Assembly: GCA_022072165.1 (NCBI GenBank)
Contig: JAJVIF010000001.1
Span: 1,754,575-1,818,574, forward strand
Length of the DNA: 64,000 nt
Direction of reading: 5' to 3'
DNA from: a bacterium
Lineage (GTDB): Bacteria; JAJVIF01
Shown: positions 43,053-51,717 of the stretch, piece after piece
Layout of the letters: each line of letters starts with the position of its first letter
Numbering within the stretch: position 1 is the stretch's first letter
Made by a program: the position numbers and the translations under genes
Notes under the pieces: model-generated
The model's input: the letters and a program-made list of their open reading frames with translations, nothing else
Database searches by the model: none
Told to the model about the DNA's origin: nothing

Positions 43053-43141
43053 CGTGACCAGGGCAGACCCTGCCGCTTCCGCGCCTGGTGGGGTCACAGT
43101 CCGGACCCCCGGGGCGACACTCCTATAGAGACCACAGCGTA

Positions 43142-46100
43142 ATGACTACGACTCCCCGCGTCACATCGACCATCGGTCGACCGGGCAGCATCGCCTTCCT
43201 CGCCATTTTCGGGGCGGTCGCGATGTTGCTGTACGGCGCGGTCCTGTTTAGCAAGGCCATGAGCCGGTCGGTGGTGGAGATTGCGCTGAAGGTCGCGACC
43301 ACCGACCAGTTAAATGCCGCGACCTTTCTTGCGAAGGAACTCGGGGATAACCAGAACGCTACTGGGGAGGAATCATCGACACCGTTGATGATCATCCACA
43401 GTCCGGCTGATGTTTATCGCGAAACTTTTGACAATTTCACGGTTCGTCACGGCATCCGCGCTTATGTCGTCAACGCACGCTCCCATGCGCCGGTCCTCGA
43501 AGGCGCGCCGCCGCTCCCGGTCGAAGCCCCGATTCTGGTCCCTCGGGCGCTACGCTCGGTCTATGGCGATCTCACCCTGAGTCAGGCCATCGCCCTTCGT
43601 CGCAAGCTCCAGGGGACTGTCACGACCGACCACGGGCGGCAGCTGGTGACCCTGGTGCCGATTCAGGGCACCACCGACCTCGTGGTGATTTATCGCCCGG
43701 AAGCCCCGATTCTCACGGCAGCAGAAGAACTGACGCAGCGATTTACCGGCTATCTCCTCGCGGCTTTCACGATCGTCCTCATTCTGTTCGCGCTCTTCAT
43801 GCGGACCATCACCCGCCCCTTGCGCGACCTCACGCTGGCGGTCCAGGAGATGGGCTCCGGCGCACTCGATCAGACCGTCGTGGTCCCCCGGGGATCCGAA
43901 GTTAGTCTGCTGGCGGAAGCGTTCAATCAGATGTCGCGGGAACTGCGGGTGAAGTATCGTGAACTGGCGGCCACGACGCGCCGGCTGGAAGACTCCAACG
44001 ACCGGTATCGCCAGGTCCTGGTGGACTACGAGCGACAAAACACCGAGCTGTCGATTCTCAACACCCTGGTGTTCGAGGCTTCGCGCACCGACATCACCGA
44101 CCGCAATCTCGACTTCCTCACCAACGCGATGCAGCGGAGCTATGGGCTCCTCGTGGTGGCCATTTTCGAATACCACCCGCGGCACGGCTGGGACCTGCTG
44201 CACGCATCCGATCCCCTTTTCGAAACCTGCAACTTCGCCGAAGGGGGCCTGCTCGCCGACCTCCAGCAGCTCGCCCGGCACAAGAAGCTCCACCTGGCGA
44301 GTGCCCGACGCATTGGTGAGTCCCGGGGATCCTCCTACAGCCAGTCCTTCGCCAGTGTCCCGATGTGCATCGTGCCGGTGACTGTGCAGGGAGCGCTGGA
44401 AGCAGCCTTTGTGTTGGTGGCACCGAGGCAACGCGACTTCTCACGCGCCGCCCTGGCGCGGTACACCCGCCTCACGCAGCAGCTGGGCATCCTCTTCCAT
44501 AAGGACAAACTCCTGCGGGAGACGCAGCGTCGGCGAGAGCAACTGGAAAAGATCAACAGCCTCGGTGCCGCGCTGCTCAGCGACCTCGACTTTGACAGCC
44601 TCGTTCCCCGGATGCTGCACGAGCTCTCTACAGCCCTGAACGCTGACCAGGCGCTCCTCTGCCTGCAGGAAGACCACGAACTGCGACCGGTCATGGCGGT
44701 CGATGCCACGGGCGAGGTCCCGCCCTTTCTCCATAGTCAGGAGCGGACCTGGAACGCCCAGGTTATCGCCACCGGCGAGCCGCTCCTGGTGGGCGAGTAC
44801 CCCCGTCTGGAACTCTGGACTCCCGATGAAGAGGCCCCGATCCTGGCACGGGCAAGTCGATTCCAGTCGTTTCTCGCCCTCCCGATCAGCCAGGGAAATG
44901 CCGTCACCGGGGTCCTGGTGTTTCTGGCGGAGCAACCCCATACGTTCGATCAGGATGACATCCAGTTCCTGATCACCTTCGCCAATCAGCTCGCGGCCGC
45001 GATCCTCAATGCTCGCCTGTTCCAGGAAATCAGCCGGCGCGATGACCGGCGCAATGTCCAGCTTGCAACCGCCAAGCAGTTTCAGGCAGACCGCATCCCG
45101 ATGCTCTATGAGGATGAGGGGATCGAAGCCCTGGCCTCGCTCCTCCCCGCCGAAGAACTCGCCGGCGACTTCTTCGATGTCTTCCGGCTGTCGCCCAACA
45201 TCACTGGACTGGTAATCGGCGATGTCGCCTCCAAGGGGGTCGCGGCGAGTCTCCTCACCTTCTCCATGCTCTCGATTTTCCGGAACTACGCCACCGCCAT
45301 GCGCCCGCCAGCAAAGGTGATGGAACTGACCAATGACACAGTCCGGGCACAACTCAAAGGCGACTTCTGGTTCGTCACGGCCTTCTACGCCCGCATCAAC
45401 CACATGGACATGACCATGACCTACTGCAAGGCAGGTCATGTGATGCCCGTCCTCTACCACGCTGACACCGGTACCTGTGAGCTCCTGGATGGCGAGGGGC
45501 TGCCGCTGGGGATTCTCGATGGCGAGGAGTATGACGGTGGCCAGGTGGACCTCGCGCCGGGCGATCGCCTGGTCTTCTACACCGATGGGGTCACCGAGCT
45601 CAAGAACGCCCGCAATCAGCAGTTCGGGGTCGAGCGCCTCTGCGAAATTGTCGCGGCCAACGGCCATGAATCCCCGGCGCGTTTGAAAGAAGCCATCCTC
45701 GAGGCCCTCGACGCCTGGGGACCCGGCGCTGGGCGCGATGACATCCTCCTCGCGACTGTCGGCATTCAGGAAAAGCTCGGCATTGCCATGGAAATCACCT
45801 ACGAGGAGATGGAGGAAGTCATCGACAAGATCATGTCCGAGATCCGGAGCTTCCCGGTGGATGCCACCACTCTCTATGCGGTCCGGCTCGCCCTCAACGA
45901 AACCATCGCCAATGCCTGGATGCACGGCAATCAGGGCGATGCCACCGCCCCGATCTGGATCACTTACCGGGTCACCAGCAGCTACTTCTCCCTCCAGGTC
46001 CGGGATGGAGGACGGGGCTTTGATTACGAAAATCTCCCCGACCCCACGGTGCCGGATAACCTGATCCGGACTCACGGTCGCGGCATCTTTCTCATGCGGC

Positions 46101-46273
46101 AGCTCATGGACGATCTGGAATTCAACGAAGCCGGGAACGAAATCCGGGTCCGGAAGTACTTCACGTTTCAGACTGTCCAGGATGCGGTCGCAGCCCTGCA
46201 GCAGGCGAACGCCCAGGTCGCAGAGTCCGAGGACCCCGCGGTCCTGCGGGCCCTCTATGGCGGCGTGGAATAA
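43142..46273 (+). CDS. multidomain sensor: HAMP-GAF-GAF-PP2C-anti-sigma kinase fusion
   Basis: 1043 residues. TM1 at ~16-36, a ~165-residue extracytoplasmic domain, TM2 at ~203-220, HAMP to ~275, GAF ~316-450, GAF ~490-635, SpoIIE-type PP2C ~659-865 (ELAGDFFDVFR, GDVASKGVAASL, VFYTDGVTEL, GRDDILLATV) and an RsbW-like HATPase_c domain ~883-1010 (LALNETIANAWMHGN, VRDGGRGFD, GRGIFLMRQL). The same polypeptide therefore carries both the phosphatase and the kinase activity of a partner-switching module. Between PP2C and HATPase there is no STAS domain. A TATAGA hexamer is 12 bases before the ATG. The end overlaps the convergent thioesterase gene by 19 bases. Confidence 0.93.
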   Translation: MTTTPRVTSTIGRPGSIAFLAIFGAVAMLLYGAVLFSKAMSRSVVEIALKVATTDQLNAATFLAKELGDNQNATGEESSTPLMIIHSPADVYRETFDNFTVRHGIRAYVVNARSHAPVLEGAPPLPVEAPILVPRALRSVYGDLTLSQAIALRRKLQGTVTTDHGRQLVTLVPIQGTTDLVVIYRPEAPILTAAEELTQRFTGYLLAAFTIVLILFALFMRTITRPLRDLTLAVQEMGSGALDQTVVVPRGSEVSLLAEAFNQMSRELRVKYRELAATTRRLEDSNDRYRQVLVDYERQNTELSILNTLVFEASRTDITDRNLDFLTNAMQRSYGLLVVAIFEYHPRHGWDLLHASDPLFETCNFAEGGLLADLQQLARHKKLHLASARRIGESRGSSYSQSFASVPMCIVPVTVQGALEAAFVLVAPRQRDFSRAALARYTRLTQQLGILFHKDKLLRETQRRREQLEKINSLGAALLSDLDFDSLVPRMLHELSTALNADQALLCLQEDHELRPVMAVDATGEVPPFLHSQERTWNAQVIATGEPLLVGEYPRLELWTPDEEAPILARASRFQSFLALPISQGNAVTGVLVFLAEQPHTFDQDDIQFLITFANQLAAAILNARLFQEISRRDDRRNVQLATAKQFQADRIPMLYEDEGIEALASLLPAEELAGDFFDVFRLSPNITGLVIGDVASKGVAASLLTFSMLSIFRNYATAMRPPAKVMELTNDTVRAQLKGDFWFVTAFYARINHMDMTMTYCKAGHVMPVLYHADTGTCELLDGEGLPLGILDGEEYDGGQVDLAPGDRLVFYTDGVTELKNARNQQFGVERLCEIVAANGHESPARLKEAILEALDAWGPGAGRDDILLATVGIQEKLGIAMEITYEEMEEVIDKIMSEIRSFPVDATTLYAVRLALNETIANAWMHGNQGDATAPIWITYRVTSSYFSLQVRDGGRGFDYENLPDPTVPDNLIRTHGRGIFLMRQLMDDLEFNEAGNEIRVRKYFTFQTVQDAVAALQQANAQVAESEDPAVLRALYGGVE

Positions 46274-49385: not shown

Positions 49386-49832
49386 TTAAGAACAACCGCA
49401 CTGAGGTGCGTTGCAGTCAGCGGTACTGGAAAATGACCGTGGGCACTGATCAAGATCACACTGCAGCAGGTCTGAAGTACAGTCAGGATCAGCAGGATCG
49501 GGCGTGTAACTCACGCTGCAGCTTCCACTGAGGACCGGATCTCCGCAATCCATACCGTTCCAGCCGGGTCCAGTGCACAGATTGAACAGATTGCTGCACT
49601 TGAAGGTCTGGATTGTCCCCGAAGAGGTCCAATCAGCCATTACGGTGCAATTGTAGCCCCAACCGCAGTCCGCCTGGCAGGTGGAGTTTGGTGGGCAGAC
49701 TGCAAGTTTCCAGCAGCAATCCCAGGCATTTGCGGGGGTGGTGATGACGGTAGTGTCGAGGATCATCAGGCAGAGCAGCAGGGGCCACATCAGGATGTGG
49801 GCTGCTCCTTTGCATGGGCTGCTCCTTTGCAT
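49386..49832 (-). CDS. secreted Cys-rich protein expressed from a repeated start region
   Basis: 148 residues from ATG 49832. Positively charged start (MQRSSPCKGAAH), hydrophobic core LMWPLLLCLMIL and cleavage likely after TTPANA, then a mature domain of ~105 residues with 16 Cys, e.g. WDCCWKL, CPPNSTC, CQADCGWGYNC, CSNLFNLC, CDLDQCP. Such density implies several disulfides; no family recognised. A longer frame to 50042 is rejected because the strong promoter lies inside it. AAAGGAG six bases before ATG 49832; ATG 49790 is an in-frame alternative but its Shine-Dalgarno is 14 bases away. Confidence 0.75.
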   Translation of the reverse strand: MQRSSPCKGAAHILMWPLLLCLMILDTTVITTPANAWDCCWKLAVCPPNSTCQADCGWGYNCTVMADWTSSGTIQTFKCSNLFNLCTGPGWNGMDCGDPVLSGSCSVSYTPDPADPDCTSDLLQCDLDQCPRSFSSTADCNAPQCGCS

Positions 49833-49865
49833 GGGCTGCTCCTTTGCATGGGCTGCTCCTTTGCA
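49798..49865 (-). repeat. four perfect 17-bp repeats, each a Shine-Dalgarno plus ATG
   Basis: On the minus strand the unit TGCAAAGGAGCAGCCCA occurs four times without mismatch. At each junction CCC-ATG-CAAAGGAG forms: AAAGGAG then six bases then ATG. ATGs fall at 49849, 49832 and 49815, all with ideal spacing, in three different frames because 17 is not a multiple of three; a fourth ATG at 49866 lacks a Shine-Dalgarno. Only 49832 reads into the Cys-rich protein; the frame from 49849 ends at TGATG overlapping ATG 49790. Confidence 0.92.
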
Positions 49866-49917
49866 TGACGCATCAGTCACGCCATCGAAGCAGTTCTGTG
49901 TTTGTCGGAATACCCGC

Positions 49918-49946
49918 ACTATACGCTCCTGCTTCTCATCTGTCAA
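49918..49946 (-). promoter_or_regulatory. consensus sigma-70 promoter of the Cys-rich gene
   Basis: TTGACA (49941-49946), 17-base spacer, TATAGT (49918-49923) on the minus strand: the best promoter match in the window. The leader is about 65-80 nt and ends in the repeated initiation region. Confidence 0.85.
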
Positions 49947-50052
49947 GACCCGATAGATGCACCTCGCATGTAACAATCTGGGGTCGTTGGGACTGTACAT
50001 TTTCCGGACGCTCATTTTGAATGGCTGCACGGAAGCCAACATCTACGACTGC

Positions 50053-50089
50053 TTCAAAAACAACAGGACCTCTGGTGACAGAGGTCCTG
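50053..50089 (-). terminator. terminator of the binding-protein gene
   Basis: Perfect 11-bp stem CAGGACCTCTG and complement with loop GTGA (plus-strand reading), followed on the minus strand by TTGTTTTTGAAG. Confidence 0.85.
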
Positions 50090-50121
50090 CTGACTCGTGT
50101 AGCGATGGAACCGGGCAGCGG

Positions 50122-51546
50122 CTAGCCGCCGCCCATCCCGGTGGAGGTCCCGCTCCCCGGGGCCGTGGTGGTCATCCCACCTGCCGGGGCATCGGTGGTG
50201 GTCCCATCCTCGTTGATAGTCGAGGGGGCATCCGCCGGAGCTGGTGGAGGAGCCGGAGCTGCGGGGGCTTCCCCCTTGAGGACCAGCATGGCGTACCGCG
50301 CGATCATCTGCCCCTGGAACGTGTCCAGATAGCAGGCCCGGAAGACATACTCCTCGTTCGTGACATCCGGATTGGTGCTCGCCGGCGAGATCATCGGAAT
50401 CTTGTTCTCCTGCGCGATGGGAGCCATCGCCAGGGAGTTCTTCGAGGCGACCTCCCCCAGGAGCGCAACTACTTTCTGCTCCGCGATCAGCTTCTTGGCA
50501 GCATTGGCGGCCCCGGTGGGCGTGGACTGGTCATCCTGCGAGACGAGTACCAGCTTCACCCCCGGCCCCAGCAGCTGCTTCGCGTTGATCTCTTCGACCG
50601 CGAGCATGGTGCCGTTGTTGGACGCCGCCCCGAAGGACGCGACCTCGCCGGTCATGGCCACGACCTGCCCGACTTTGATCTCTTTCGGGAGATTCCCCGC
50701 CGAAGCGGGCGCCTCCATCGCCGGTGCGACTGCATCGCCGCCGGTGACGGGATTGCCATTCTTGTCGACCCGTCCGGCCAGTACCCGCTGCCCGTTCTCG
50801 ATCTTAATGATCACCATCCCCTTCTGCGGGTCGCCCTTTTTATCGAGGGTGATTGCGCCGGTGAGTCCCGGCAGATCGGTCGTCGCTGCGATGGCATCCC
50901 GCAGGGCGGGCCCGTCGGTGGTGCCGGCGCGACGCAGGGCATCGGCGATCATCAGCGCGGAGTCATATCCCAGGGCCGCCATGGCATCGGGGAACATGTT
51001 GTACTTCGCCTGGTAGGCCTTCACAAACGCCTGGACCACCGGCGAGGGATCACTTTCCACATAGTGCGTGGTGAAGTAGGTCCCTTCCACGGCCTTGCCC
51101 CCCTTCTGAAGGAGCTCCGGCATATCCCAGCCATCGCCGCCGATCATCAGGGCGCTGAGGCCCTCCGCCCGGGCATCCCGGATGATCAGGGCGGTGTCCG
51201 TGGCATAGCCCGGCAGGAACAGGACCTGCGGATTCTTCGCCTTGATCTTGACCAGCAGCGAACGGAAGTCGGTGTCCCCGGCGGCATAGGCCAGGGTTTC
51301 GACAATCTCGCCGCCATTGCCGGTCCACTCCGCCGTGATGGCATCTTTCAGCCCCTCGGAGTAGGCATTGGTCTGGTCATACAGGATGGCGCCGGTGAGG
51401 GCCGCGGGAGTCGTGGTCCCCTCTTTGGTGGTCCCGGTCGCCTGACCGCCACCGGCCGGTGCCTGCTGCTGCCCTCCCCCACCGCCACACCCGAAGAGCG
51501 TGAGGCTCAGTAACAGACTGGTGCAGGTGTAAACGAGTCGTCGCAT
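50122..51546 (-). CDS. circularly permuted LivJ/LivK-type periplasmic binding protein, lipoprotein
   Basis: 474 residues, lipobox LFGC at 17-20, then Gly/Gln/Thr linker to ~49. Residues ~51-262 are the C-terminal lobe of Peripla_BP_6 proteins (TGAILYDQTNAYSEGL, GDTDF, FLPGYATDTALI, IGGDGWDMPELL, FPDAMAALGYDSALMIADALRRAG, MVIIKIENGQR). A ~28-residue linker leads to residues ~289-425, which are the normal N-terminal lobe (IKVGQVVAMTGEVASFG, SQDDQSTP, ALLGEVASKNSLAMAPIAQ, IPMISPASTNPDVT, YVFRACYLDTFQGQMIARYAM). Normally ARYA..L leads directly into KVAILYD; here that junction has become both termini. Tail 426-474 is Pro/Thr/Gly-rich. No Liv permease or ATPase is nearby. Confidence 0.88.
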   Translation of the reverse strand: MRRLVYTCTSLLLSLTLFGCGGGGGQQQAPAGGGQATGTTKEGTTTPAALTGAILYDQTNAYSEGLKDAITAEWTGNGGEIVETLAYAAGDTDFRSLLVKIKAKNPQVLFLPGYATDTALIIRDARAEGLSALMIGGDGWDMPELLQKGGKAVEGTYFTTHYVESDPSPVVQAFVKAYQAKYNMFPDAMAALGYDSALMIADALRRAGTTDGPALRDAIAATTDLPGLTGAITLDKKGDPQKGMVIIKIENGQRVLAGRVDKNGNPVTGGDAVAPAMEAPASAGNLPKEIKVGQVVAMTGEVASFGAASNNGTMLAVEEINAKQLLGPGVKLVLVSQDDQSTPTGAANAAKKLIAEQKVVALLGEVASKNSLAMAPIAQENKIPMISPASTNPDVTNEEYVFRACYLDTFQGQMIARYAMLVLKGEAPAAPAPPPAPADAPSTINEDGTTTDAPAGGMTTTAPGSGTSTGMGGG

Positions 51547-51717
51547 ACCTGGCGATACCTCCGCGGGTCCTGTCAGCCCACCTCATGCGCGCTGGCGGGA
51601 CCGGTTTTCTCGCCGGCTTACAGCGCCGCCACTACCTGCGCGGCCCTGCTGCCGGGAACAGGGCATTATAGGCTTGCAATAAACACCCTCGTACTCGCCA
51701 TCATCAGGAGCCCTCCC

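Follow-up and report, generated by a model that had tools for sequence, protein, structure and literature searches.

An apparently natural circular permutation of a Peripla_BP_6 lipoprotein, opened at the first crossover between its lobes

Introduction

In the LIVBP fold the polypeptide chain normally crosses between the two lobes three times. The E. coli proteins LivJ and LivK (PDB 1z15, 2liv, 1usg and 2lbp) share the Peripla_BP_6 family and the fold with the 474-aa lipoprotein described here, which keeps most of their ligand-site positions, but they have the normal lobe order, are soluble in the periplasm and are more distant from it in sequence. Its closest solved relative, for both lobes, is the LivK-type protein TM1135 of Thermotoga maritima (PDB 3td9; 35% identity with a sequential structural match), in which the aligned ligand-site residues are those of the lipoprotein but the lobes follow the normal order, N-lobe then C-lobe.

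A precedent for a different order exists among the type I binding proteins. TpMglB-2 (Tp0684) of Treponema pallidum, published in 2016, is a naturally circularly permuted member for which glucose binding and ligand-induced closure were measured; it has relatives of the same topology, for which its authors proposed the term ‘Type Ic / Cluster Bc’ (PMC4990184). Natural permutations in which both parts are still recognisable by sequence are uncommon, and among type I binding proteins our literature search gave the TpMglB-2 group only; for LivJ/LivK-type proteins it returned engineered sensors or unrelated work and no other natural case. The statement in the first-pass annotation that no natural example was known thus holds for LivJ/LivK-type (Peripla_BP_6) proteins, but has to be narrowed in view of TpMglB-2 (PMC4990184). 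Here we describe a lipoprotein that is apparently a second natural case of a permuted type I binding protein, independent of TpMglB-2 and in another subfamily.

Results

The gene lies on the minus strand of the window (the whole stretch of DNA analysed, 64,000 nucleotides) at 50122–51546 and encodes 474 aa from an ATG start in a frame that is continuous, as had been claimed. In the direction of reading, its features are:

51557–51562, minus strand: ribosome-binding site GGAGGT, 10 nt upstream of the ATG, read directly from the sequence
51487–51546, minus strand: predicted lipoprotein signal peptide, residues 1–20, ending in LFGC, from the translation; low pLDDT
51397–51486, minus strand: low-complexity anchor linker, residues 21–50, from the translation; pLDDT mostly low
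50767–51396, minus strand: normally second segment, residues 51–260, Peripla_BP_6 137–342 (Pfam, PDB search and AlphaFold2 model), made up of C-lobe part 1, the return to the N-lobe and C-lobe part 2
50686–50766, minus strand: new linker (residues 261–287) bridging the former C- and N-termini, no family match
50275–50685, minus strand: normally first segment (N-lobe part 1), residues 288–424, Peripla_BP_6 1–130 (Pfam, PDB search and model)
50122–50274, minus strand: low-complexity C-terminal tail, residues 425–474, and stop codon, from the translation
50061–50092, minus strand: intrinsic terminator, a 14-bp stem followed by TTTTT, just past the stop codon

The lipobox was called by eye, and Cys20 is presumably the residue to which the lipid is attached; low pLDDT over a signal peptide is expected. 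GC content and codon preference are similar in both lobes and the same as in the neighbouring genes. The flanking promoter and terminator context had been described as looking intact, which the terminator and the ribosome-binding site bear out, but a sigma-70 scan gave no sigma-70-like promoter upstream of the start.

Two independent searches place the lobes in the same inverted order. In Pfam, residues 51–252 correspond to positions 137–342 of the PF13458 profile and the N-lobe, further on in the chain, corresponds to positions 1–130, and the E-values of the halves taken separately (2.2e-36 and 3.7e-29) exclude chance. In the PDB search, residues 54–253 match residues 154–353 of the 3td9 chain, and residues 286–420 match residues 13–144. 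As found, in two pieces, the protein scores 221 bits against PF13458, above the curated cut-off of 31.7; its best families are Peripla_BP_6, ANF_receptor and Peripla_BP_5, and no sugar-binding family matches it at E 0.01. Rotating the sequence turns the paired matches into single collinear ones with higher scores, both for Pfam (4–342 against 1–342/343, 237.8 bits compared with 221 unrotated) and for 3td9 (15–353, 250 bits compared with 236). The inversion reported by the first-pass annotation is borne out by these searches, and its break point also proved right: aligned to the relative L005, which has the normal order, the N-lobe part reaches position 158 and the C-lobe part starts at position 163, leaving four residues between them and no overlap. 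With no residues repeated and hardly any absent, the chain has been cut cleanly where it first crosses from lobe to lobe. The linker that replaces the old ends, put at ~28 residues, comes to ~27 (261–287). Proteins of the Peripla_BP_6/HAAT type carry the N-lobe before the C-lobe, whereas here profile positions 137–342 precede positions 1–130; judged by these alignments, the lipoprotein is a permuted derivative of the family rather than an ordinary member.

For the prediction of its fold, AlphaFold2 was given the two halves of the relatives as separate, unpaired rows, and hence without any permuted sequence to follow. Half-piece alignments were scored against pairwise alignments. A plain MAFFT alignment (A1) was dropped as N-lobe pieces had landed on the C-lobe, a second (A2) was dropped as the ends of C-lobe pieces were misplaced, and in the one chosen 98% of the residues lie within three positions. 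The resulting model of the 474 residues has a mean pLDDT of 85.3 and a pTM of 0.80, with low confidence mainly at the signal, linkers and tail: pLDDT drops to 62 in block 271–280 of the new linker and to 43–51 in the C-terminal tail from about residue 451. Since tails and linkers account for ~100 residues, about a fifth of the chain, a pTM of 0.80 indicates that the two parts are confidently placed relative to each other. After the C-lobe part, the N-lobe part of the model contains all ten of its elements (five strands, five helices), which follow one another as in a control model of L005 (pTM 0.86). Foldseek, which follows chain order, matched 3td9 over 216 columns (TM 0.57) with the permuted model and over 356 columns (TM 0.82) with the normal-order control model of L005, and fewer columns are expected of a permutation in a method that keeps chain order. 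The model supports the view that a complete two-lobed type I fold is kept with its elements in rotated order and, together with the rotated alignments, supports the earlier proposal that the membrane anchor has moved to the C-lobe.

Measured against 20 normal relatives, the protein keeps 24 of the 27 positions that are invariant among them and 36 of the 41 that are nearly so (60 of 68 conserved positions in total); the two lobes are alike in this respect, and the total is within the range of similarly distant normal members. We take Trp18, Ser79, Thr102, Tyr150, Tyr202 and Glu226 to form the ligand site of the leucine-binding protein and LIVBP. In the rotated alignment Ser79, Thr102, Tyr150 and Tyr202 are kept, while Trp18 is replaced by Phe and Glu226 by Asp, which is the same set of residues as in 3td9. 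On this alignment the amino-acid ligand-site residues of the permuted protein are kept or conservatively changed, and the gene looks real and maintained, to judge by the open frame with its ribosome-binding site and terminator, the native codon usage and the conserved and ligand-site residues; we infer that it is expressed and that its product binds an amino acid.

The origin of the permutation by tandem duplication and partial loss, as first suggested, is plausible, since normal-order tandem arrays of two to five binding-protein genes of the same subfamily occur in other genomes (L041, L056, L059 and L063) and could serve as the starting point for duplication, fusion and loss of the outer parts. 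At the junctions, DNA repeats are weak and short, with none convincing. Separate trees of the two lobes place the permuted protein differently, the N-lobe beside a 20-member clade and the C-lobe farther off, in a group where it joins L014, which leaves a single-gene origin less than certain. The two halves might instead have been fused from two paralogues or donors, giving a product that would look and work alike, and for TpMglB-2, too, the authors considered a second gene as the source of the permuted part (PMC4990184). We regard such a fusion as unlikely: by tree distance the nearest sequences to both halves belong to the same subfamily and largely to the same loci (L034, L005 and L039), the discordance is weak since each half is short and the branches are long, and no other copy is left, with neither the window nor the genome holding a second copy or a flanking remnant of either half.

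The genome assembly consists of 4 contigs (99.1% complete, 0.11% contaminated), and the permuted lipoprotein is the only PF13458 (Peripla_BP_6) protein encoded in it. The liv genes are dispersed: LivH, LivM and LivG lie together on contig C2 with no binding-protein gene alongside, LivF (G000:C2:319139-319837; 59% identical to the LivF of a complete liv operon) lies ~11 kb from them, and the permuted gene is on a different contig, C1. Linkage of the binding-protein gene to LivH/M/G/F is common but not obligatory; in the relatives L005, L035 and L040 it directly precedes LivH. Because the lipoprotein is the sole PF13458 protein and the liv genes come without a linked binding protein, it probably serves the LivH-LivM-LivG-LivF importer in trans. 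It could also act as a tethered sensor or a swapped dimer, not as the importer's binding protein; the permutation may then be tolerated since docking to LivH/LivM has been lost, or the N-lobe segment of one molecule may fill in the lobe of its partner. The gene is not adjacent to any importer gene and the long flexible linker could allow exchange between molecules, but we consider such a role rather doubtful, since the genome encodes a full LivHMGF set with no binding protein linked to it and this is its sole PF13458 protein, and the monomer model is confident.

Relatives were sought in about 780 genomes. In the large tables many of them were seen by their C-lobe row alone at the E-value limits used, and the order was read for 66 ORFs; in all 66 relatives with both lobes whose sequence was inspected, suspicious spans included, the N-lobe comes first. 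A close permuted relative would be expected to give a stop-free match running from the C-lobe into the N-lobe, and every such candidate that was checked has the normal order. The possible second cases (G098, G344, G302, G272, G187, G534, G703, G546, G566 and others), suspected on account of matches running from the C-lobe into a linker or N-lobe or of unusually long open frames, are likewise of normal order. The host phylum is represented by 4 genomes in the collection, of which the other three, from the same class, are without the gene, and the plasmid collection has no record in which one place covers 80% of the permuted protein. Homologues with the same inverted order, for which the first-pass annotation had proposed a search, were thus not found in a second genome among the about 780 searched (66 ORFs order-checked), and within this sample the permuted form is a singleton.

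Its presence in one genome only and its absence from the three genomes of the same class are compatible with an assembly artefact, in which the assembler would have broken up and rejoined a gene of normal order or collapsed a repeat. This is very unlikely, however, as the gene sits inside a 1.88-Mb contig of a four-contig assembly with little contamination, neither half has a second copy in the genome, all junctions are in frame with the break at the lobe boundary and nothing duplicated or missing, and a single gene would account for the low-complexity linkers on either side together with the ribosome-binding site and the terminator. The earlier assertion that the order is not an assembly join within the gene can be upheld as a likelihood, the in-frame junctions and the long contig weighing for it and the restriction to one genome against it. 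Scarcely credible is a decaying remnant without function, for although the gene is a singleton, unlinked to importer genes and changed at several family-conserved positions, it retains conserved positions equally in both lobes and as often as similarly distant normal members do (60 of 68), its frame, ribosome-binding site and terminator are intact, and its codon preference is native.

Discussion

The reading that we prefer, with a probability of roughly 0.85, is a natural circular permutation of a solute-binding lipoprotein of the branched-chain-amino-acid type (HAAT/Peripla_BP_6) that has kept its clamp and is most likely the amino-acid carrier for a Liv importer in trans. In the proposed mechanism the chain would have been opened at the first hinge crossover and the old ends joined by the ~27-residue linker. 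The protein would still have a two-lobed clamp with its ligand site and two of the three hinge strands, and the third would be replaced by a flexible connection, namely the linker from the old C-terminus in the C-lobe to the old N-terminus in the N-lobe. The lipid anchor would now lead into the C-lobe, not the N-lobe, and the captured amino acid would be handed to the LivH-LivM-LivG-LivF importer encoded elsewhere in the genome.

TpMglB-2 and the 474-aa lipoprotein have in common a natural permutation, a lipid tether, two lobes and N-lobe strands at the C-terminal end of the chain. In other respects they differ, as TpMglB-2 belongs to the MglB group and binds glucose whereas the lipoprotein belongs to HAAT/Peripla_BP_6 (PMC4990184). 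The break in TpMglB-2 lies inside the N-lobe, with the first three strands moved and a fourth crossover (PMC4990184), while that of the lipoprotein lies exactly at the first hinge crossover, with five strands and five helices moved. The moved part of TpMglB-2 is 13% identical to EcMglB (PMC4990184), compared with about 35–56% identity to normal relatives for that of the lipoprotein. Set against the features of ‘Type Ic / Cluster Bc’, the lipoprotein has the natural permutation, but neither the break after the third strand of the N-lobe with a fourth crossover nor the sequence relation to MglB-type proteins.

At somewhat better than even odds, the HAAT/LivJ family would here have its first natural circular permutation, cut exactly at the hinge crossover and fixed as the sole binding protein of a working Liv importer. 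If so, transport by a type I binding protein can survive both the loss of one covalent hinge strand out of three and the transfer of the membrane anchor to the other lobe. As the cut falls at the hinge on which opening and closing depend, the protein allows one to ask, in a natural setting, whether clamp motion and permease docking require all three hinge strands to be continuous. Both natural cases are lipid-tethered and have N-lobe strands at the end of the chain; this is relevant to the idea of the TpMglB-2 authors that the permutation is an adaptation to tethering (PMC4990184). Sensor engineers permute such proteins deliberately, and the first hinge crossover appears as a site that evolution has accepted. 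For annotation there is a warning, in that order-dependent searches see permuted proteins as two fragments.

Several observations concern the neighbourhood of the two loci. LivH (L049:6770-8260; G000:C2:303769-305259) is 496 aa long, compared with about 300 in relatives, with a ~185-residue insertion, apparently in part extracytoplasmic, that follows the first transmembrane region; the long LivH might relate to the unusual binding protein. Between LivH and LivM lies a 260-aa ORF (L049:8257-9039) with one apparent transmembrane segment, a coiled coil and no Pfam match. Near the permuted gene, a cysteine-rich ORF without a Pfam match (49386–50042, minus strand) contains a 17-bp tandem repeat (TGGGCTGCTCCTTTGCA, ~4 copies) at window positions 49781–49865. 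By inspection, a SpoIIE-type phosphatase gene (L049:11071-13131) directly follows LivG, and the window itself has at 43088–46273 what looks like another large regulator with a SpoIIE-type phosphatase domain.
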